A DNA stretch of 64,000 nucleotides, taken from positions 62,001-126,000 of the forward strand of contig NZ_AAWL01000005.1 in the NCBI RefSeq assembly GCF_000169155.1, in the 5' to 3' direction. Each line of letters starts with the position of its first letter. The first letter of the stretch is position 1. The position numbers and the translations under genes were made by a program. Shown one piece after another: positions 9,052-55,280 of the stretch. The DNA is from Thermosinus carboxydivorans Nor1 (GTDB lineage Bacteria > Bacillota > Negativicutes > Sporomusales > Thermosinaceae). The notes under the pieces are model-generated. The model saw only the letters and a program-made list of their open reading frames with translations, did not search any database and was not told the DNA's origin.

Positions 9052-9224
9052 TGTTTCCGCCCTGTTTTGTTGTTCGTTTGGCCGGGGAGGATTGACTTTT
9101 CGTTTCGGTACATAACCTAGAGCATGATTTTCAAAACTAAAAAGGGATTTCCCGATAGACGGCCAAATATATATAGATTATGTTTTTGGTACAAGCTTAT
9201 TAATTGTTAATGGGTGATAGGCAT

Positions 9225-11866: not shown

Positions 11867-12691
11867 ATGCCGGAAATGCCGGAAGTAGAGACCATCCGCC
11901 GTACGCTCGCTGACAAGGTCGTAGGCCGACGTATCGAAGCGGTAAAAATTGATTTGCCCCGTCTGGTTAAATGGCCTTCGGTTTCTGAATTTAAGGAAGC
12001 AGTAACAGGCAGAAAAATCGAGCGCCTTGACCGACGCGGCAAATATCTGCTGTTTCGCCTTGAACACGACCTGGTCATGGTGGTACACTTGCGCATGACT
12101 GGCCGGCTGTATTATGTACCGGCCGGTTATCAGCACGATAAATTTACGCATATTGTTTTCGATCTCGATAATAATGATGCTCTGATTTATGCCGACTCGC
12201 GCACGCTAGGCACCCTTTATGCCATACACCTTGCTGACCTGGGACGAATTGCCGGGTTAGCCACTATGGGCCCTGAGCCGCTTTCACCGGAATTCACTTT
12301 CGATTATTTCCGGATGATGTTGAAAAAGCGGCAGTCGTCGATTAAGGCTGTCCTGCTTAATCAGCAGCTTATCGGTGGTTTGGGCAACATCTATGTAGAC
12401 GAAAGTTTAGCTGTGGCTGGCATTGCGCCGACGCGCCCCGCCGCCAGTCTTAGCGAGGACGAAACGCAGAAACTTTATCGCGCTATAAATCAGGTCATCG
12501 AAGAAGGTATTGCCCATGGAGGGACAAGTTTTCGCGATTACCGCGACGGAGTCGGACAAACCGGCAGTCACCAGCATTATCTGCGGGTATATGGCCGTAA
12601 GGGACAGCCCTGCCAGCGGTGCGGCATGCCAATTGTCCGCACGGAAGTAGCCGGCCGGGGTACTCACTTTTGTCCAATATGTCAACGATAG
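11867..12691 (+). CDS. mutM: formamidopyrimidine-DNA glycosylase
   Basis: A base-excision repair enzyme removing 8-oxoguanine and related lesions, with AP-lyase activity. The start must be ATG 11867, because the catalytic proline follows the initiator (PEMPEVETIRRTL); GGAGTGAT is well spaced. Other motifs are the lysine in RRGKYLLFRL, the VVHLRMTGRL strand, the H2TH region GLGNIYVDE and a C-terminal CxxC...CxxC zinc finger with GRGTHFC. It lies 17 nt after polA, and coaE follows after 14 nt. Confidence 0.95.
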   Translation: MPEMPEVETIRRTLADKVVGRRIEAVKIDLPRLVKWPSVSEFKEAVTGRKIERLDRRGKYLLFRLEHDLVMVVHLRMTGRLYYVPAGYQHDKFTHIVFDLDNNDALIYADSRTLGTLYAIHLADLGRIAGLATMGPEPLSPEFTFDYFRMMLKKRQSSIKAVLLNQQLIGGLGNIYVDESLAVAGIAPTRPAASLSEDETQKLYRAINQVIEEGIAHGGTSFRDYRDGVGQTGSHQHYLRVYGRKGQPCQRCGMPIVRTEVAGRGTHFCPICQR

Positions 12692-19026: not shown

Positions 19027-20091
19027 ATGGAAGGGAAACTTGTTCTTGCTGACGGGTCAGTTTTTTCGGGAACAATGCTAGGGCCGCTCCATACTGTCGG
19101 TGAAGTGGTCTTTAATACAGGTATGACAGGCTATCAGGAAGTGTTGACAGATCCGTCGTATTGTGGACAAATCGTGACTATGACTTATCCGTTAATCGGA
19201 AATTACGGGGTGGCCGCTTCCTTTAACCAGTCACGGCAACCCTATGTCCGTGGTTTTGTCATCGGCGAACTATGTAGTACGCCTAGTAACTGGCGAGCAG
19301 AGAACTCGTTGGCAGAGTTTTTAAAGCGGCATCGTATTCCTTGTTTATATGGCGTCGATACCCGGGCGCTTACCCGACGGATTCGGGCCAGCGGCGTGAT
19401 GATGGGGGTACTGGCGCCTGCTCGCATGGGGCACGAAGAGGCTCTCGCTCTGCTGAGCAATGCGGACGTTGTTCATTTGGTTGAAAAAGTTACCACGCCA
19501 ATCGTCTACCGGCTGCCCCGGACAGGCCCGCGGGTAGTGGTAATGGACTTTGGTGTAAAGCGAAATATTTTAGAGTCCCTCGCCAGGCTTGGCTGTGATT
19601 TGACCGTCGTGCCGGCAGCAACAACAGCCGAGACGATATTGGCCATGGAGCCGGATGGTGTATTTTTATCCAATGGTCCCGGCGACCCCAAAGAGGTGTC
19701 CTATGCCATCGAAACAGTAAAAAAACTTGTGGGAAGAAAGCCCATTTTTGGTATTTGTCTCGGCCACCAAATTTTGGCGCTGGCTTTAGGTGGGGATACT
19801 TATAAATTAAAATTCGGACACCGCGGGGCCAACCATCCGGTTAAAGATCTTGCTACAGGGCGTGTTTTTATTACGTCGCAGAATCATGGGTATGCAGTGG
19901 CAGAAACATCGCTTCACGGTACTGACCTGGTTGTTACACACCGGGCTGTCAATGATGGGACGGTTGAAGGGCTGAGACACCGTACATTGCCCGTCTTTTC
20001 AGTACAATACCATCCTGAAGCAGCGCCGGGACCACATGACAATATGTATTTATTCCAGCAGTTTTATCAGTTGATGACTAAGGAGGTGTAG
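19027..20091 (+). CDS. carA: carbamoyl-phosphate synthase small (glutaminase) subunit
   Basis: 354 residues; hydrolyses glutamine and passes ammonia to CarB for carbamoyl phosphate, feeding pyrimidine and arginine synthesis. The N-terminal CPSase domain has [18 protein letters not shown]. The class I amidotransferase domain has nucleophile Cys244 in FGICLGHQ and the [12 protein letters not shown] histidine/glutamate. GGGAGG precedes the ATG. Its last codons contain the AGGAGGTG ribosome site of carB, which starts 2 nt after the stop. Confidence 0.96.
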
Positions 20092-20093
20092 CG

Positions 20094-23000
20094 GTGCCGA
20101 AGAAACTAGAGCTACAAAAAGTAATGGTAATCGGGTCAGGCCCGATTGTTATTGGTCAGGCGGCTGAATTCGATTATGCGGGCACGCAGGCCTGCCGCGC
20201 CTTAAAGGAAGAGGGGCTGGAGGTAGTTCTCGTCAACAGTAATCCGGCTACCATCATGACAGATGATAATATTGCTGACCGTGTATATATCGAGCCGTTG
20301 ACCCCCGATTTCATTGAGGAGATAATTGCCAAAGAACGGCCCGATGGGCTTCTGCCTACTTTAGGCGGCCAGGTCGGCCTCAACCTGGCGGTCACGGCGG
20401 CTGAGCGGGGTGTTCTTGAAAGGTACGGTGTAAAACTGCTTGGTACTCCCCTCGCAGCCATAAAAAAAGCCGAAGATCGCGAGTTGTTCAGAGCTACAAT
20501 GCAACAGATCGGCCAACCTGTGCCGGAAAGCACTATTGCCTCAACTTTGGCCCAAGCTTTGCGCTTTGCCAAAGACATTGGTTATCCCCTCATTGTCCGG
20601 CCTGCTTATACTCTGGGCGGGACTGGCGGTGGAATCGTACACAATGATGCGGAGCTAGGCGAAGTAGTGGCCCGTGGTCTAAAACACAGTTTAATTGGTC
20701 AGGTGTTGTTAGAACGAAGTTTGGCAGGGTGGAAGGAAATAGAATATGAGGTGATGCGAGATGGCGCCGATAACTGCATTGTTGTGTGCAATATGGAAAA
20801 CCTTGATCCTGTCGGTATCCATACCGGGGACAGCATTGTCGTTGCTCCTTCGCAGACGCTGTCAGATGAAGAATATCAGATGCTGCGGAGTGCAGCCCTT
20901 GCCATCATCCGGGCTTTGGGCATTGAAGGCGGCTGCAATGTGCAGTTTGCGTTAGATCCCCACAGCAGCCGCTATTACGTTATTGAAGTGAATCCTCGCG
21001 TCAGCCGTTCCAGTGCGCTGGCTTCCAAAGCGACGGGCTATCCCATTGCTAAGGTTGCCAGCAAGATTGCGATCGGTTATCGCCTTGACGAAATTCCTAA
21101 TGCTGTAACCGGGAAAACGATGGCCTGTTTTGAACCGGCGCTCGACTATGTTGTAGTGAAATTTCCTCGCTGGCCTTTCGATAAATTCGCTTACGCCGAC
21201 CGACTGTTGGGGACACAGATGAAAGCAACTGGCGAGGTCATGGCCATTGACCGATCTTTTGAGGCTGCCTTGTTGAAGGCTGTCCGGTCGCTCGAAATCG
21301 GTTTGCATGGTCTGACCGTTTCGAATATTGCGCGCCTTAGCACGGCAGAAATCCGCAACAAGCTCCATAGCGCCAGTGACGAGCGTCTATTCCTTGTGGC
21401 CGAGGCGCTCAGGCGTGGCGTTAGTATCGACGAACTTCATGCTATCACGGCCATTGACCGGTTTTTTCTGGCTAAAATTATGAATTTAGTCTTAATGGAA
21501 CAAAAGCTAAGCCAGGAAAAACTATCGCCGCGCTTGCTCGCGGCAGCCAAACAGATGGGATTTACCGATCAGACAATAGCCGCCATAACCGGGAAATCTC
21601 CTTCTGAAATTCGGAATTTGCGCCGAGAAGAAGGTATTATTCCATGTTATAAAATGGTTGATACCTGTGCCGCTGAATTCGAAGCCGTTACACCCTATTT
21701 TTATTCGACCTATGCCCAGGAGGACGAGGTGCCGCCCGGTCCCCGCCGCAAAGTGGCTGTCCTTGGTTCCGGCCCGATCCGCATTGGCCAGGGCATAGAG
21801 TTTGACTACTGCTCTGTCCACTCCGTCTGGGCGCTACGAGAGATGGGCGTCGAAACGGTCATTATCAACAATAATCCGGAAACGGTTAGTACTGACTTTG
21901 ATACTGCCGACCGGCTATATTTTGAACCATTGACGGTGGAAGACGTGCTTCACGTCGTGGAGAAGGAACAGCCGGATGGTGTCATTGTGCAGTTTGGTGG
22001 TCAGACAGCCATTAACCTAGCTGTTCCCTTAGCGCGAGCCGGGGTGCCCATCTTGGGAACCAGTGTGGAAAGCATTGATTGTGCCGAAGACAGGAAAAAA
22101 TTTGACGCTCTTGTCGAGCGTCTTGGTATTCCGCGTCCAGCCGGGGTAAGTGTGACAAACATGGCTGAGGCCAGGGAAAAAGCAGGTGTTATCGGCTATC
22201 CCGTTGTGGTTCGTCCCTCCTATGTTCTGGGTGGCCGGGCCATGCAGATTGTTTACAACGAAAACGAACTGGTTGAGTATTTAACCAAAGCGGTTCAAGC
22301 GTCTACGGACCGACCGGTGCTTATTGACCGGTACATTCAAGGTACGGAAGTGGAAGTAGACGCCATTGCCGACGGGCAGGACGTACTGATTCCGGGAATC
22401 ATGGAACATATCGAACGGGCTGGTGTTCATTCTGGCGACAGCATCGCTGTTTATCCTGCGCGCACGCTCGGACCGGACGAAATTACTCGAATTGTCGATT
22501 ATACAAAGCGGCTGGCACTGGCCCTTAATGTGCGGGGACTTATTAATATTCAGTTTGTTGTCGCTGACGGACAGGTCTATATTCTTGAAGCCAATCCTCG
22601 TTCCAGCCGGACGGTGCCGTTTCTCAGCAAAGTTACCGGTATACCGATGGTTCAGCTTGCCACCCGCATTGCCATGGGCGAAACGCTGGCTGGGATGGGG
22701 TGTGCAACAGGCTTGTTGCCGCCAAAACCGTTTTGGGCGGTAAAAGCCCCTGTATTTTCGTTTGCAAAAATGCAGCAGGTTGATATTGCGCTGGGACCGG
22801 AAATGAAGTCGACCGGCGAAGTGATGGGCATCGATTATCATTATGCCCGGGCGCTGTATAAAGCCATGACGGCTGCTGGTCTGGCTATATCGCCAAACGG
22901 CGTCGTACTGTTTAGCGTTGACGAGCAGGACCAAACAGCAGCTGTGCAAGTGGCAGCTGGCTTTCTGGCCCTTGGGTATCACCTGCTGGCAACACCAGGT

Positions 23001-23315
23001 ACGGCCAAGTTTTTTCAGGGGCAGGGGCTAGCCGTAGAGACGGTTGGCAATGGTTTAGACAGTCAGTCTCATATTTTGAAACTAATTCAGGATGGCACAA
23101 TTAGTTTAATTATCAATACCAAGGTTCAAGGTCAGCAAGCAGTGTGGGATGGTTTTAAAATTCGCCGGATAGCAGTGGAATACGGCATACCCTGCCTAAC
23201 ATCCATGGATACGGCCCGCGAATTTTTGTACGCTCTGACAAGTATGCGCGAACGGCGTTTGGTTTATGTCCTTGCCCTGCAGGATTATGTGGGGAAAGGT
23301 GATGATTATGTATAG
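20094..23315 (+). CDS. carB: carbamoyl-phosphate synthase large subunit
   Basis: 1073 residues, full length. Two homologous ATP-grasp halves are visible. The first begins with [21 protein letters not shown] and contains [12 protein letters not shown] and [20 protein letters not shown]. The second begins with [20 protein letters not shown] and contains [12 protein letters not shown] and [15 protein letters not shown]. The C-terminal MGS-like allosteric domain (from about residue 935) has LATPGTAKF. It forms carbamoyl phosphate from bicarbonate, ammonia and two ATP. GTG start, coupled to carA. Confidence 0.97.
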
Positions 23316-23387: not shown

Positions 23388-23404
23388 TAAATAAATAAAT
23401 TAGG

Positions 23405-23496
23405 CCTTTTAAACTGGTCCTGTGAGGCTGGTAAGGGGGAATCTGGATGGATTGTTAGGCCTTCTTGCGTGTTTTACAGGCAAGAAGGCTTTTTTA
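23405..23496 (+). promoter_or_regulatory. PyrR-type attenuator, stage 1
   Basis: TTTTAAACTGGTCCTGTGAG followed by GCTGGTAAGG (23407-23436) contains the known PyrR RNA-binding loop consensus. It is followed by a strong terminator hairpin, GCCTTCTTGC/GCAAGAAGGC, with T7 at 23459-23496. By analogy with Bacillus pyr leaders, UMP-loaded PyrR would stabilise the first hairpin and permit termination. Confidence 0.85.
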
Positions 23497-23545
23497 TTGA
23501 CGATGATAGATTTTTTAGCAAATACAAGCAAGAAATTAATAATTT

Positions 23546-23650
23546 CCTTTAAGTTGGTCCTGTGAGGCCGGCAAGGATTTTGGCTACTCAAAAAAATATA
23601 ACTTTGGTTGGCCATGTCAACTCCTTGCTCGTTCGGCAGGGAGTTTTATT
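23546..23650 (+). promoter_or_regulatory. PyrR-type attenuator, stage 2
   Basis: A second PyrR-binding hairpin (AAGTTGGTCCTGTGAGGCCG, ending GGCAAGGA) lies 50 nt after the first terminator. Its GCAAGGA tail is exactly complementary to TCCTTGC in the 5' arm of the terminator AACTCCTTGC/GCAGGGAGTT at 23619-23645. This gives the expected mutually exclusive antiterminator. Confidence 0.85.
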
Positions 23651-23759
23651 GTGTCACTCATTATAAAATTTGGATATATTGTAATTGTGTGTGCCAAAAT
23701 GATACTGTCTGGAGTTATGTTAGCTATTTAATAAGACTATGCAAGAGGGAGGGATCCTT

Positions 23760-27222: not shown

Positions 27223-27358
27223 GTATTTGTTTGAAAATGGCCGCTAGGATGTGTTCGGGCATGTAAAAGATATAGAGGCAAGGACCTGAAACTAGCGAGA
27301 TGGGAAAAGGAGAGAGACAAAAAAGCGGTATATAAAGCAAGAAATGATTAATTATTAG

Positions 27359-27387
27359 TTGACAATACTATATGGCCTTGATAAACT
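27359..27387 (+). promoter_or_regulatory. promoter of the orphan PyrR leader
   Basis: TTGACA at 27359-27364 and TAAACT at 27382-27387 are 17 nt apart, immediately before the third PyrR-type hairpin. Confidence 0.65.
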
Positions 27388-27408
27388 ATAGCTAAAATAT
27401 ATGGGAGT

Positions 27409-27508
27409 CCTTTAAGCCGGTCCTGTGAGGCTGGTAAGGAGTATACTGAGTAATACCGGAGATAAGTATGTCTTCTTGTGCGCCTCACACGCCAAGAAGG
27501 CTTTTTTA
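27409..27508 (+). promoter_or_regulatory. orphan PyrR-type attenuator, stage 1
   Basis: AAGCCGGTCCTGTGAGGCTG followed by GTAAGGA matches the PyrR site of the pyrK leader. It is followed by the terminator GTCTTCTTG...CCAAGAAGGC with T6 (27470-27508). Same design as the pyrK stage 1, but no pyrimidine gene follows. Confidence 0.8.
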
Positions 27509-27565
27509 TTACTAAAGATACCTTGTTGCTCTTCTTAAGTTAAGAAAGTTATTAAATATTGGTGT

Positions 27566-27652
27566 CCCTTTAAGTTGGCCCTGCGAGGTCGGCAAGGGTA
27601 GTGCTGGCAAAGCCAGATTTTTGTTAACTCCTTGCCGATAGCGAGGAGTTTT
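27566..27652 (+). promoter_or_regulatory. orphan PyrR-type attenuator, stage 2
   Basis: AAGTTGGCCCTGCGAGGTCG followed by GCAAGGG is a second PyrR-like hairpin. Its GGCAAGG tail complements CCTTGCC in the terminator AACTCCTTGC/GCGAGGAGTT at 27626-27650. Beyond it only short stop-rich frames precede the convergent transposase, so the regulated gene appears to have been lost. Confidence 0.75.
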
Positions 27653-27834
27653 ATGTTAAGAGCAGCGGTACGATGTCAAGAGGCTAATTTAACATAAAAA
27701 ACTATGTATTGCTGCTACCTAAGGTGGTGAACCGAAAAAAGGCAAACCTTAACTAGACCCACCAATATCCACATCAAGATGGTAATATATGGTAACTGGT
27801 GGACAAAGAAAAATGGTCTTTTTAATCGGTTATG

Positions 27835-29073
27835 TCAGACTCCCCCTTCTGGTTTATAAATTCGGTTGGTACGCAGCAGAGAATCGACCAACCGTACCAG
27901 TTTACGGGCTGTAAGCGCAAGGGCACGTTTTGTGGCAAAGGTTTTAGGCTCGGCCAGCTTCTGAGCGTAATACCGGGCGAAAACAGGGTCGTGCACCCTG
28001 ACACTGTTTGCCGCTTCCATCAAATAATACCTCAGATAGCGGTTGCCGGAAAGAATAAGCCTTGATTGGGCTGCCGTAAAGTTGCCTGATTGATGCTCAG
28101 TCCAAGCAAGACCGGCAAATTTAGCTAATTGGCGATGATTTTTAAATTGGTTGATATCGCCAATTTCGGCCAAAATACCGGCGGCAAAGATTGGGCCAAT
28201 GCCCGGAACTGTATCAAGGGTCTGGGGAATAGTCGCCAGATGGTCTTCGATAGCCTTGTTAAGGGATTTGATTTGCTCCTGAAGAGTACGGATGACCCGA
28301 ATGAGCGAAGCCATAGCTAAATTAACGGAATCGGCCATAGATTGAGGAAGCCTGTACGAAGAACGAGCGGCTTTTTGCAAGGCCTTGGCAACTTGAGCAG
28401 GGTCATCAAAACGGTTTTTGCCGCGCTCTACCAGAAACTCTACAAGCTGATCCAGGGAGATATTGGCTATCTCCTCAGCAGAATCAAACTCTTCCATAAC
28501 GGCCAAGGAAGTAGCGGATAACTTGTTAGAAAAAGGTCCGACGGTGTAATCACTAAACTTTAAATACAGGTTGGTCATAAGAATATTGCTATTGCGCGTA
28601 AGTTCGCGAACTAGATGAAGGCGGGCCCTGGTTAAGCGCTGTAAAGCCAAGAGCGGCTCATTTAAAGTAAAAGGGTGAGGTAAATGGCCAGAGCGGAGCT
28701 TGGATGCAATGAACCAGGCATCCACACGGTCATTCTTGGGAGCGTCGAGGTAGTGTGATTTCTTAAAATCCCTAATCAGGCTTGGATTGAAAACATATAC
28801 CTTGGTTTCAGGGCAATCAAACGATAAATGATGTTGCAAATACATGGCGACATGAGTGGAATAACAACCTGTATGTTCCAAGCCAAAGAGGACTTGATCA
28901 AAACCGTGTTTATGGACAAGAGAGACAATGCGGTCCTGGAATTCTAAGATGCCAGGACGGTTGTTGGCAACGGAAAAACGACACAAAGGCCGTTTTTCTT
29001 CCTGAAGTGTTAAGCAACAAACAACATTGTCCTGACTGCTTACATCAATTCCGACAAACAAGGGAGATGGCAT
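27835..29073 (-). CDS. IS110-family transposase (DEDD recombinase)
   Basis: 412 residues. The N-terminal RuvC-like DEDD domain begins LFVGIDVSSQDNVVC, continues with FGLEHTGCYS and includes the later acidic pair in PKNDRVDAWFIAS. The C-terminal transposase_20 domain has DTVPGIGPIFAAGILAEIGD and FAGLAWTEHQSGNF with the serine-containing LILSGNRYLRYYL. Such enzymes recombine DNA guided by a bridge RNA encoded in a non-coding end of the element. ATG 29073 has AGGAGG eight nt upstream. The frame is intact, so the element may be active. Confidence 0.93.
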   Translation of the reverse strand: MPSPLFVGIDVSSQDNVVCCLTLQEEKRPLCRFSVANNRPGILEFQDRIVSLVHKHGFDQVLFGLEHTGCYSTHVAMYLQHHLSFDCPETKVYVFNPSLIRDFKKSHYLDAPKNDRVDAWFIASKLRSGHLPHPFTLNEPLLALQRLTRARLHLVRELTRNSNILMTNLYLKFSDYTVGPFSNKLSATSLAVMEEFDSAEEIANISLDQLVEFLVERGKNRFDDPAQVAKALQKAARSSYRLPQSMADSVNLAMASLIRVIRTLQEQIKSLNKAIEDHLATIPQTLDTVPGIGPIFAAGILAEIGDINQFKNHRQLAKFAGLAWTEHQSGNFTAAQSRLILSGNRYLRYYLMEAANSVRVHDPVFARYYAQKLAEPKTFATKRALALTARKLVRLVDSLLRTNRIYKPEGGV

Positions 29074-29108
29074 AGGAAACACCTCCTTTCAAACAGGATG
29101 AGGATGTC

Positions 29109-29377
29109 TACGGTCCTGGGATGTCCCTGGGAAACCCATGAACGACAGCCTTGCGTGCTATTGGAATACACCGGAGGCCACCGGTGCACAAGCCTTCCTC
29201 TGCTGGCGGAAGGGGCGGCCGAACGGGAAACATTCAGCGTGTAGGTCTATACCATGGGGCCAGGGGAACACTCTTACTGTGGAAGAACCCTTCAAGAGGG
29301 GCAACAGGGGGAAACGGAACATTCCCTTGGTAGACATCCACCTATGGCTATTTTCCCAAAGACATCCCAGGACCGTA
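29109..29377 (-). ncRNA. candidate bridge-RNA region of the IS110 element
   Basis: Non-coding, GC-rich 5' end of the element, upstream of the transposase gene. It is framed by a perfect 17-bp inverted repeat (TACGGTCCTGGGATGTC at 29109-29125 and its complement at 29361-29377). A CACCGG/CCGGTG stem and other hairpin-forming stretches lie inside. In IS110-group elements the bridge RNA is transcribed from this position. Loop assignment and RNA ends cannot be given here. Confidence 0.45.
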
Positions 29378-29482
29378 AAGAGATTTTGAGGATGTTTCAT
29401 TTTCAAAAATAAAGAAGAGCAGCTTTGGTTGATTATGTTAATCAACTGGTCGCTACTCTTAATATACAAGGGAGGAATTATA

Positions 29483-30478
29483 ATGAAAAAGCTTTATTAT
29501 GACCATGATGCCAATTGGGACATTATCAAAGATAAGCATGTGGCCATTATTGGTTACGGCAGCCAGGGGCATGCCCATGCCTTGAACCTGCATGACAGCG
29601 GCGTTAAGGTCACGGTCGGCTTGTACGAAGGAAGCAAGTCCTGGAACAAGGCGCTGGGCGACGGGTTGGCCGTTGCCACGGTAAAGGACGCAGTCGCCCA
29701 AGCCGATATTGTCATGATGCTGTTGCCTGATGAAAAACAAGCGGCCGTTTATACCGAGCAGGTAGCGCCTTACATCAGACCGGGAGCGGCGTTGGCTTTT
29801 GCCCATGGCTTCAATATTCACTATAACCAGATCGTTCCGGCGACCGACATTGACGTATTTATGGTCGCCCCGAAAGGTCCCGGCCATTTGGTGCGGCGCG
29901 TCTTTACCGAAGGCAAAGGGGTGCCATGCCTGATGGCGGTGTATCAGGACAGTACCGGGATGGCGCAAGACATCGCTTTGGCCTATGCCCGGGGCATAGG
30001 GGGAACACGGGCCGGGGTGCTGCTTACCACTTTTAAAGAAGAAACAGAAACTGACCTGTTCGGGGAGCAGGCCGTCCTGTGCGGGGGCCTGGCCGAACTT
30101 GTCTGCGCCGGATTTGAAACCCTGGTCGAAGCCGGTTACCAGCCCGAGTCGGCCTATTTTGAGTGTCTGCATGAACTGAAGCTCATCGTCGACCTGATGT
30201 ATGAAGGCGGGCTCGCGGCCATGCGCCACTCGATCAGTGATACCGCCGAGTACGGTGATTATATGACCGGTAAACGGATCATTACCGAAGCCACCCGGGC
30301 CGAGATGCGTAAAATTTTGGCGGAAATCCAGGATGGTACTTTCGCGAAAAACTGGATCCTCGAGAACAAGGCCAACCGGCCGGTCTTTACCGCCTTGCGC
30401 CGGCAAAAAGCGGCTCATCCGGTTGAACAAGTGGGGAAAGAGCTGAGGGCGATGATGCCGTGGCTGAAGAAGGAATAG
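29483..30478 (+). CDS. ilvC: ketol-acid reductoisomerase
   Basis: 331 residues, class I short form; converts acetolactate or acetohydroxybutyrate to the dihydroxy acid with NAD(P)H. The Rossmann motif is [17 protein letters not shown]. Metal and active-site residues lie in [26 protein letters not shown] and [14 protein letters not shown]. Start ATG 29483 has GGGAGG. The normal upstream gene ilvN is absent; an IS110 element lies 100 nt before it, so its original promoter or leader may be gone. A TTGATT/AATCAA hairpin lies at 29427-29446. Confidence 0.95.
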
Positions 30479-33471: not shown

Positions 33472-35286
33472 TTATAGCGATTGTTTAATTCCCAGGAAGA
33501 TCGCGCGCTCTTGGGCAGGATAGCCGGGTACTTCCTGGTAGTGTTTGTTAAAGAGGTTACTGATGGTTAAATATAAGCTTTGTCCCTTAGTCATAGTATA
33601 GTTAAAGGTAGTATTCCACACGAAATAACTTGAAACATCACTTGTTTTACTTACATATTTTCCATAAATTTCTTGGGAAAACTTGCCTTGCTGCAGTCTT
33701 ATACCCAAGTTAAAAGTATTGTACGGTACTTGCTGATTATTGTTTTCATCGCGCGAATCAAGGTAAGTGTAACCAATGTTAGCGGATACAGCCTGAGTTA
33801 ATTTAGTTGCAAACGACAAAGTCGCTCCTTTTGTGGTAAGGTGGTGCACGTTTTGTACTTTCCAATCATCAGGCCCAACCTGTTTCCAATCTATTGCATC
33901 GATCAAATCCCGCTTAAATAAAGAAAAAGTTACTTCACTATCAACAGCCAGGCGTTTTTTTACACCTACTTCCGATGTCCAACCCGTTTCCGGTTTAAGG
34001 TCAGGGTCGCCGCCCCAGTTATACAAGTCGTCAAACTTAGGCGCTTTAAATACCTTGCCCCAGTTGGCAAAATAATTGGTACTATTATCGGCTTTGTATG
34101 CTAGCGCGATCTTGGGTAACCATTTTGCCCCATATTGGCTGTTATCATCATAGCGCATACCCATAGTAGCGCTGGTACGCCCGTTTAATTTATATTGATC
34201 CTGTAAATAAATTGCCTTAATAATGCGGTCACGAACCGTGTCGGGTGCATAAACCGCTGTTGACACAACTTCCTTGCGCCATTCGCTTCCCCAGGTCAAA
34301 TAATTTTTATAGTCAATTTGTGCACTGTCCTGATATTCTATTGCTCGTACTTTATTCTTATAAAAATATTTATCCATGCCCGGAAGCGCATAATAGGTCC
34401 GTTCGTGTTCATTGTTATAAAAACGCACGACACGCTCGCCATCACCATGTTTATCACTATAACCAATACTCCAGTTATGTCGCAAATAGTCGTTAATTCC
34501 TTGCATAGATCCTAGATAATTTCCCGGGTTGCCACTGTGGCTACCATAATAATCATAAGTAAAAGACAGTCCTTCGGTTTCATTAAGTTCCCGATCCAAC
34601 CGCAGTGTCGCGTTCTTACCCCGATAATCACTGTTTGGTCGCTGACCTTCTGTAGCTTCTTTCAGGCCGGTTATATACCAATGCCATCCTTTTTCCGAAC
34701 CTTGGTTAGATAAATTGAAACGACTTGTCGCATCACTGCCAAAGCCGGAATTTACTATTGTTTTGACATTGCCAGTTCCACGTTTGGTTATTATATTGAC
34801 GACGCCCCCAACAGCGTCAGCCCCATATAATACTGAGCCTCCCCCACGGACAATCTCAATTTTTTCGATATTGTCGGATAATAATATGTTATTTAAATTA
34901 ATACCGCCTGCACCTGAGCCTATCCCTTGTGGTAGATTCATCCGTTTACCATCAATCAAGACTACGATCCTGTCAGTACCTAATATGTAAGGAATTGCCA
35001 GTTCTCCCGGGCCACCATTGCGCAAAACTACTACCCCCGGCACGCCTTCCAGGGCCTCGGCTAAATTTCTCGCTCCTTTTTGCTCAAGCTGCTCGCCGGT
35101 AATTACGGTCACATCCCCCGGTGCGGTTGCAACTGTTTGCGGCACTCTAGCCGCAGTAACGGTAATTTGGTCTAGTTGGAAAACAGGGTCCTCAGCTGCT
35201 TGGACCGGATTGACCAGCAGCAATGTGCCCATTGCCAAAGTAGAAGCAATTCTTTTCACTAAGCTTTTCGTCCTTTTGTTCATCAT
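33472..35286 (-). CDS. TonB-dependent receptor (BtuB-like)
   Basis: A 604-residue outer-membrane protein. A signal peptide (to about residue 30, NPVQAAE) and a TonB-box-like DQITVTAAR precede the plug domain (VTVITGEQLEQKGARNLAEALEGVPGV, VVLIDGKRMNLPQG, IEKIEIVRGGGSVLYGADAVGGVVNIIT). A 22-strand-type barrel follows, with alternating aromatic strands and a final LTISNLFNKHYQEVPGYP region. A cobalamin riboswitch lies upstream, so vitamin B12 or a corrinoid is the likely ligand. A TonB receptor in a genome with Firmicute-type regulation marks a diderm lineage. No TonB/ExbBD or BtuCDF genes are adjacent. Confidence 0.93.
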   Translation of the reverse strand: MMNKRTKSLVKRIASTLAMGTLLLVNPVQAAEDPVFQLDQITVTAARVPQTVATAPGDVTVITGEQLEQKGARNLAEALEGVPGVVVLRNGGPGELAIPYILGTDRIVVLIDGKRMNLPQGIGSGAGGINLNNILLSDNIEKIEIVRGGGSVLYGADAVGGVVNIITKRGTGNVKTIVNSGFGSDATSRFNLSNQGSEKGWHWYITGLKEATEGQRPNSDYRGKNATLRLDRELNETEGLSFTYDYYGSHSGNPGNYLGSMQGINDYLRHNWSIGYSDKHGDGERVVRFYNNEHERTYYALPGMDKYFYKNKVRAIEYQDSAQIDYKNYLTWGSEWRKEVVSTAVYAPDTVRDRIIKAIYLQDQYKLNGRTSATMGMRYDDNSQYGAKWLPKIALAYKADNSTNYFANWGKVFKAPKFDDLYNWGGDPDLKPETGWTSEVGVKKRLAVDSEVTFSLFKRDLIDAIDWKQVGPDDWKVQNVHHLTTKGATLSFATKLTQAVSANIGYTYLDSRDENNNQQVPYNTFNLGIRLQQGKFSQEIYGKYVSKTSDVSSYFVWNTTFNYTMTKGQSLYLTISNLFNKHYQEVPGYPAQERAIFLGIKQSL

Positions 35287-35394: not shown

Positions 35395-35612
35395 GACTGC
35401 ATGAATAATCCCCTCCCCATCGCTCGTGGGTGTAGCGGTGACTGTCAGATAGGCAGTTCTCCTGGCTCTGGATCATCGCTCGCCCAAACCTTCCCAGGAC
35501 TTTCATCCCAGTGGCATAACTTGGGTTTGCTCCTCATTACAGTGGCGGGACCGCGCCGGGCTTGCACCGGACTTCCCTATTAAGCCCCGTAGGGCACCTA
35601 TCCCGATTGTAT
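35395..35612 (-). promoter_or_regulatory. cobalamin riboswitch
   Basis: On the minus strand the conserved core is present in order: GGTGCCC near the 5' end, GGGAAGTCCGGTGCAAGCCC, GTCCCGCCACTGTAA and the B12-box region GCCACTGGGATGAAAGTCC-TGGGAAGG. It ends just before a terminator hairpin. It would switch off the downstream receptor when adenosylcobalamin is abundant. Confidence 0.93.
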
Positions 35613-35835
35613 GAAATTGTGATTCAAGTAGTAGTATTTTCTATTTCATCCTCCATACTACCATTTTTGGCAACGTAATGTCAATGCTGCCCCCTTAATC
35701 GGGGCATTTACTTCACATACCGGTTTTTTGCACGCGGCAATGCAAGACGGTGGTGCAGGCATGATTTACTAACGCCAAGAATTTTCCGAAAAGATGGCTA
35801 ATTTCCTGCAGGTGTATTTTGTCCAATAAAGTGAC

Positions 35836-55148: not shown

Positions 55149-55181
55149 TAAAAAGCGCACCCGGTTAGGTTAGGTGCGCTT
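55149..55181 (-). terminator. TPP-riboswitch expression-platform terminator
   Basis: On the minus strand AAGCGCACC/GGTGCGCTT is followed by T5, between the TPP aptamer and thiS. Confidence 0.85.
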
Positions 55182-55186
55182 AAATA

Positions 55187-55280
55187 CCTCCCTACGCGGG
55201 CATTACCCCGATCAGGTCAAGAGGTCAGGTGCTTACTAGCCCACTCTCAGCCCATAACATGGGCTCCCTCGTTACACTAT
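55187..55280 (-). promoter_or_regulatory. TPP riboswitch
   Basis: The minus strand contains the THI-box core: GAGGGAGCCC, GGGCTGAGAGTGGGC, GACCTGATCGGGGTAATGCC and GCGTAGGGAGG. It controls thiSGHFE by transcription termination when TPP is bound. Confidence 0.95.

Follow-up and report, generated by a model that had tools for sequence, protein, structure and literature searches.

A tandem PyrR attenuation leader of pyrB, most likely parted from its operon in a Thermosinus draft assembly by an IS110-family element

Positions 27359–27658 of the 64,000-nucleotide stretch of Thermosinus carboxydivorans Nor1 analysed here (the window; genome G000, contig C5) are a transcription-attenuation leader of pyrB-pyrC-carA-carB, in which one promoter is followed by two predicted PyrR-controlled terminators in series. 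As had been read from the window, no pyr gene stands behind the leader in its contig: it is followed by an IS110 transposase gene in convergent orientation (27835–29082, − strand), and then comes ilvC, at 29483 on the + strand. We hold with high confidence that this is the pyrB leader, that an insertion sequence (IS) entered behind it, and that the cross-joining of IS copies placed ilvC next to it. The element, a recent arrival, inserted downstream of the second terminator, where the Shine-Dalgarno sequence (SD) of pyrB has its upstream edge, and left both the leader and a translatable pyrB operon intact.

The leader comprises the following elements:

27359–27387, + strand: promoter, TG-extended, TTGACA-17-TAAACT (consensus scan, 10/12 matches)
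27405–27440, + strand: unit 1 PyrR-binding hairpin (anti-antiterminator), hexaloop CUGUGA (predicted fold −13.1 kcal/mol)
27470–27507, + strand: unit 1 intrinsic terminator, GTCTTCTTG...CAAGAAGGC and a T run (fold z-score −4.0)
27563–27604, + strand: unit 2 PyrR-binding hairpin, hexaloop CUGCGA (predicted fold −13.9 kcal/mol)
27626–27654, + strand: unit 2 intrinsic terminator, AACTCCTTGC...GAGGAGTT (terminator scan; fold z-score −5.1)

The sequence-only reading had placed a second promoter and two PyrR units within 27355–27834; promoter scan, RF00515 matches and folds agree with this as far as about 27658, the remainder to 27834 being the right end of the IS. TG precedes the second hexamer of the promoter, and G001, the second genome of this genus in the comparison, has TTGACA with TAAACT at the equivalent position. 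RF00515 matched unit 1 at 27405–27510 (48.9 bits, E 2.7e-4) and unit 2 at 27563–27658 (37.7 bits, E 0.033). Both scores lie below the gathering score of 54 bits, so the two units are missed by a default RF00515 scan, which reported one of the four PyrR units of the window. The G001 orthologues scored 54.2 bits (unit 1) and 39.1 bits (unit 2); with the first of these above the cut-off, the low score of unit 1 in the window points to divergence within a homologous element. The hallmark of a PyrR-binding hairpin is a hexaloop of CNGNGA type, and both folded hairpins carry one, each with its own terminator. Pattern scanning listed the unit 2 terminator and folding gave a terminator in both units, the two z-scores being computed on terminator-only sequence.

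The genome encodes a single pyrR (NF003549 match at G000:C2:156393–156917, 262 bits). With this gene, and with a hexaloop hairpin followed by an intrinsic terminator ahead of pyrimidine biosynthetic or uracil-uptake genes, the locus resembles the PyrR-regulated leaders of RF00515; it differs from that family in its scores under the cut-off and in placing two full units one after the other behind a single promoter, an arrangement that is normal for this group (28 relatives). Known PyrR leaders serve as the model for the mechanism that we infer, a UMP-dependent termination in two stages: PyrR carrying UMP would bind each hairpin and keep the antiterminator from forming, so that the terminator of that unit can fold.

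Comparison of the syntenic locus assigns pyrB to this leader as its proper gene. G001 also has this leader behind an Asp-Gly-Trp tRNA cluster, as in the window, but there it leads directly and without an IS into pyrB-pyrC-carA-carB, with the SD and start of pyrB directly 3′ of the second terminator; the full order there is carA-carB, tandem leader, pyrK-D-F-E, three tRNAs, tandem leader, pyrB-pyrC-carA-carB. The IS110 element is thus the reason for the missing pyr gene, as had been suspected. More distant relatives agree, pyrB-pyrC-carA lying downstream of the tandem PyrR leader in all 28 of 28 cases. Where relatives have single PyrR leaders, the gene behind them is uraA, pyrB, or one for an MFS transporter or an NCS1-like permease; only the case of L113 is not clear.

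Among the single leaders, those at L106, L109, L111, L128, L131 and L134 precede NCS1/CodB-like permeases, as read from translations. At L001/L039 (G000:C1:57422), L102, L125 and L141 an MFS transporter gene stands behind a PyrR leader, and at L102 this transporter is followed by pyrF-pyrE-like genes; the MFS protein is a candidate pyrimidine or orotate transporter.

The window holds one further tandem leader:

23402–23652, + strand: tandem PyrR leader before pyrK-pyrD-pyrF-pyrE (RF00515 52.9 and 56.3 bits)

Its alignment with the pyrB leader upheld the earlier observation of the same unit order and terminator types, and the unit 1 terminator is the same in both. Shared terminators are probably constrained, at least in part, by antiterminator pairing, so that likeness alone is no evidence of duplication. 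Outside the genus, 18 of 19 relatives have pyrK about 7 kb downstream of their pyrB leader, apparently in one operon with one leader, and among the genomes compared two tandem leaders occur only in this genus, which has evidently split the pyr operon and carries a tandem leader on each half. These two observations favour the proposal that the whole cassette of promoter and double attenuator was duplicated when an ancestral single operon split, a proposal to which we give roughly even chances. The leaders are alignable, as that proposal expects, but at about 65% identity in G000 they are no closer to each other than to the pyrB leaders of relatives (66–70%); the best leader tree does not group them, though their grouping was not rejected (AU p = 0.42), and the tree therefore neither groups nor separates the two. 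Duplication concerns the origin of the pair and is compatible with the explanation by a pyrB leader and an IS. A second carA-carB pair (19027–23315), with no RF00515 match in front, lies upstream of the pyrK leader, and both pairs are also present in G001. CarA1 and CarA2 are 70% identical, CarA2 being mostly closer to the CarA of relatives' pyr operons; the duplicated carAB was considered as a possible trace of operon duplication.

The element behind the pyrB leader has these parts:

27658–29472 (outer limits of shared sequence), − strand: IS110-family insertion sequence, about 1.81 kb (copy ends in G000, empty sites in G001)
27835–29082, − strand: DEDD transposase gene (PF01548 78.8 bits and PF02371 91 bits, both above cut-off)
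29091–29379, − strand: predicted bridge RNA, left end of the IS (fold z-score −5.2; consensus structure)
29306–29315, − strand: GTTTCCCCCT, predicted guide for the left target; resembles an anti-SD and lies in an internal loop without pairing (sequence variable here, with invariant segments on either side)
29468–29485, + strand: ilvC SD (AAGGGAGG) and start codon at the other IS junction, belonging to the ilv operon and not to the pyrB leader

Both domains expected of the IS110 family, DEDD and Transposase_20, are present. Compared with the empty sites in G001, the junctions share only CT/CTT, a short core with no long target duplication. The consensus for the predicted bridge RNA, built over 9 elements, has 82 pairs, 15 of them with changes on both sides; the guide block is unpaired in this fold, has a YCCYCCT-like core and sits where a left target guide would be expected. 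The outer stem of the predicted RNA, about 28 pairs (29107–29131 with 29352–29378), is a strong inverted repeat.

The operon missing from the window lies on contig C23, whose first bases belong to an IS copy identical to that of the window, right before pyrB. Bases 1–551 of C23 match the right part of the window IS, pyrB starts at C23:554, and pyrB, pyrC, carA and carB are all intact.

In G000 the IS is represented by five left and five right ends, of which almost all are identical. When the flanks were placed on G001 coordinates, three copies proved collinear within 5–12 bases: the pyr-leader pair (C5-left ends at 9125, C23-right starts at 9130), the ilv pair (C31-left ends at 11949, ilvC-right starts at 11961) and the C16/C3 pair (C16-left 8957, C3-right 8962; hemB and hemL by sequence reading). 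The fourth, C3-left (9913, at a T-box-like terminator) with C37-right (10020), has a larger gap of about 107 bases, and for the fifth, C44/C27, the match is in gene content alone (a hydrogenase large subunit with a cytochrome b, from a reading of translated ends). ilvC follows the acetolactate synthase small-subunit gene in G001, and that left flank is found in G000 on contig C31. The two IS copies that were assembled through, C5 (in the window) and C3, each combine flanks that are not neighbours in G001, and six contig ends (C31, C44, C16, C37, C27 and C23) break inside the element; because of this pattern, the simplest account of the leader-IS-ilvC junction, and the most likely one, is that the assembly was misjoined at a 1.8 kb repeat with no mismatches. 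The copy in front of pyrB and the identical copy in front of ilvC would have been cross-joined, and hence the contig would continue into ilvC. The true order would then be leader-IS-pyrB, and leader transcripts would have to cross the IS, antisense to the transposase gene, to reach pyrB. Scanning the + strand of the IS for terminators gave no terminator-like site, so readthrough from the leader into pyrB is possible.

It is also conceivable, if rather unlikely, that the junction is genuine and that two identical IS copies recombined, by inversion or another exchange, disconnecting the leader from pyrB, so that pyrBC-carAB would come under whatever precedes the reciprocal copy. This would replace only the misjoin step of our reading. 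The reciprocal halves, C31-left and C23-right, exist exactly as an exchange predicts and C3 provides a second swapped pair, but swapping of both of the only two assembled-through copies, with six contig ends in the same repeat, is a draft-assembler pattern, and two independent viable exchanges would be required. Recombination between copies predicts the same junctions as a misjoin, and the few interior SNPs between copies are located where the partner contigs carry no information on the choice.

We rejected two explanations put forward in the sequence-only reading. That the IS insertion removed a pyr gene or a uracil permease, as the absence of a pyr gene after the leader in the contig had suggested, is extremely improbable given the intact operon on C23, with relatives' downstream gene, pyrB, immediately behind the IS copy, and a uraA on contig C13 with a separate PyrR leader. 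We give just as little credence to a stand-alone UMP-responsive RNA: the leader is intact (RF00515 matches and folds) and the pyrB leaders of G000 and G001 are 90.9% identical (pyrK leaders, 88.3%), but the IS copies are near identical, so that the insertion must be recent and leader conservation since then says little; moreover, downstream genes were found for all tandem leaders, and none of those in relatives was conserved with no gene behind it. A single mobile element and a draft assembly can thus produce an apparently orphaned riboregulator, and where an orphan leader adjoins an IS copy the missing gene should be sought on another contig before loss or a new RNA is inferred.

More interesting than the orphan leader is the targeting of SD sequences by this IS110 clade. 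Insertions in G000 lie at the upstream SD edge of pyrB, ilvC, a hemL-like gene, a cytochrome b gene and one more gene. A contig scan of genomes other than the window's own found relatives of the transposase (about 41–80% identical) in other Bacillota and Negativicutes; there, too, the left end abuts an SD and the start codon lies 13–15 nt from the junction, an SD at the junction being absent in L156 and L160 among the 17 relatives examined. An open reading frame of at least 40 codons starts 13–15 nt from the junction at 18 of 23 sites, compared with 31% of SD-like motifs and 13% of random positions, both drawn from the same locus sequences as the 23 sites. The insertion does not part the SD from its start codon, both of which lie beyond the left end.

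The bridge-RNA guide predicted for this clade resembles an anti-SD and matches its own targets: guides matched a mean of 6.5 nt in the targets of their own element and 5.4 nt in those of other elements (permutation p 5e-5). We consider it likely that this clade, widespread in Bacillota and Negativicutes, has bridge-RNA left guides that mimic the anti-SD of 16S rRNA (YCCTCCT-like) and that its elements are thereby aimed at ribosome-binding sites (RBSs) genome-wide, separating genes from their leaders or promoters with SD and coding sequence unharmed. If true, an RNA-guided transposon with an anti-SD-like guide would offer a general means to rewire how any gene is transcribed and yet spare its translation start.

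IS900 inserts between the SD and the start codon. The elements described here share with it membership of the IS110 family and insertion at translation initiation signals; they differ in that their left end abuts the upstream SD edge, with no insertion between SD and start. Targeting of translation initiation signals by IS900 of Mycobacterium avium subsp. paratuberculosis is named in the title of Doran et al. (1997), as cited in PMC8141618. With IS621 and other IS110 bridge-RNA (seekRNA) elements (PMC11208160, PMC11187229), our elements share a recombinase with DEDD and Transposase_20 domains, a CT core, a non-coding left end that folds like a bridge RNA and a guide matching the left target, the last two being predictions here. 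They differ in their targets, which are SD sequences here and REP elements there; the main texts of PMC11208160 and PMC11187229 make no mention of SD or RBS targets.

Copies of the clade are found on G000 contigs C3, C16, C23, C27, C31, C37 and C44 as well as in the window, and at L067–L080, L157, L172 and L174. A 179-base IS-end fragment, 96% identical, also lies at an SD and start codon (L064, G000:C16:28868–29046), and reads as an older, decayed insertion. Elsewhere in the window, cobalamin and TPP riboswitches are present on the − strand at 35435–35616 and 55172–55280, the cobalamin riboswitch lying upstream of a TonB-type receptor-like open reading frame (33472–35286).
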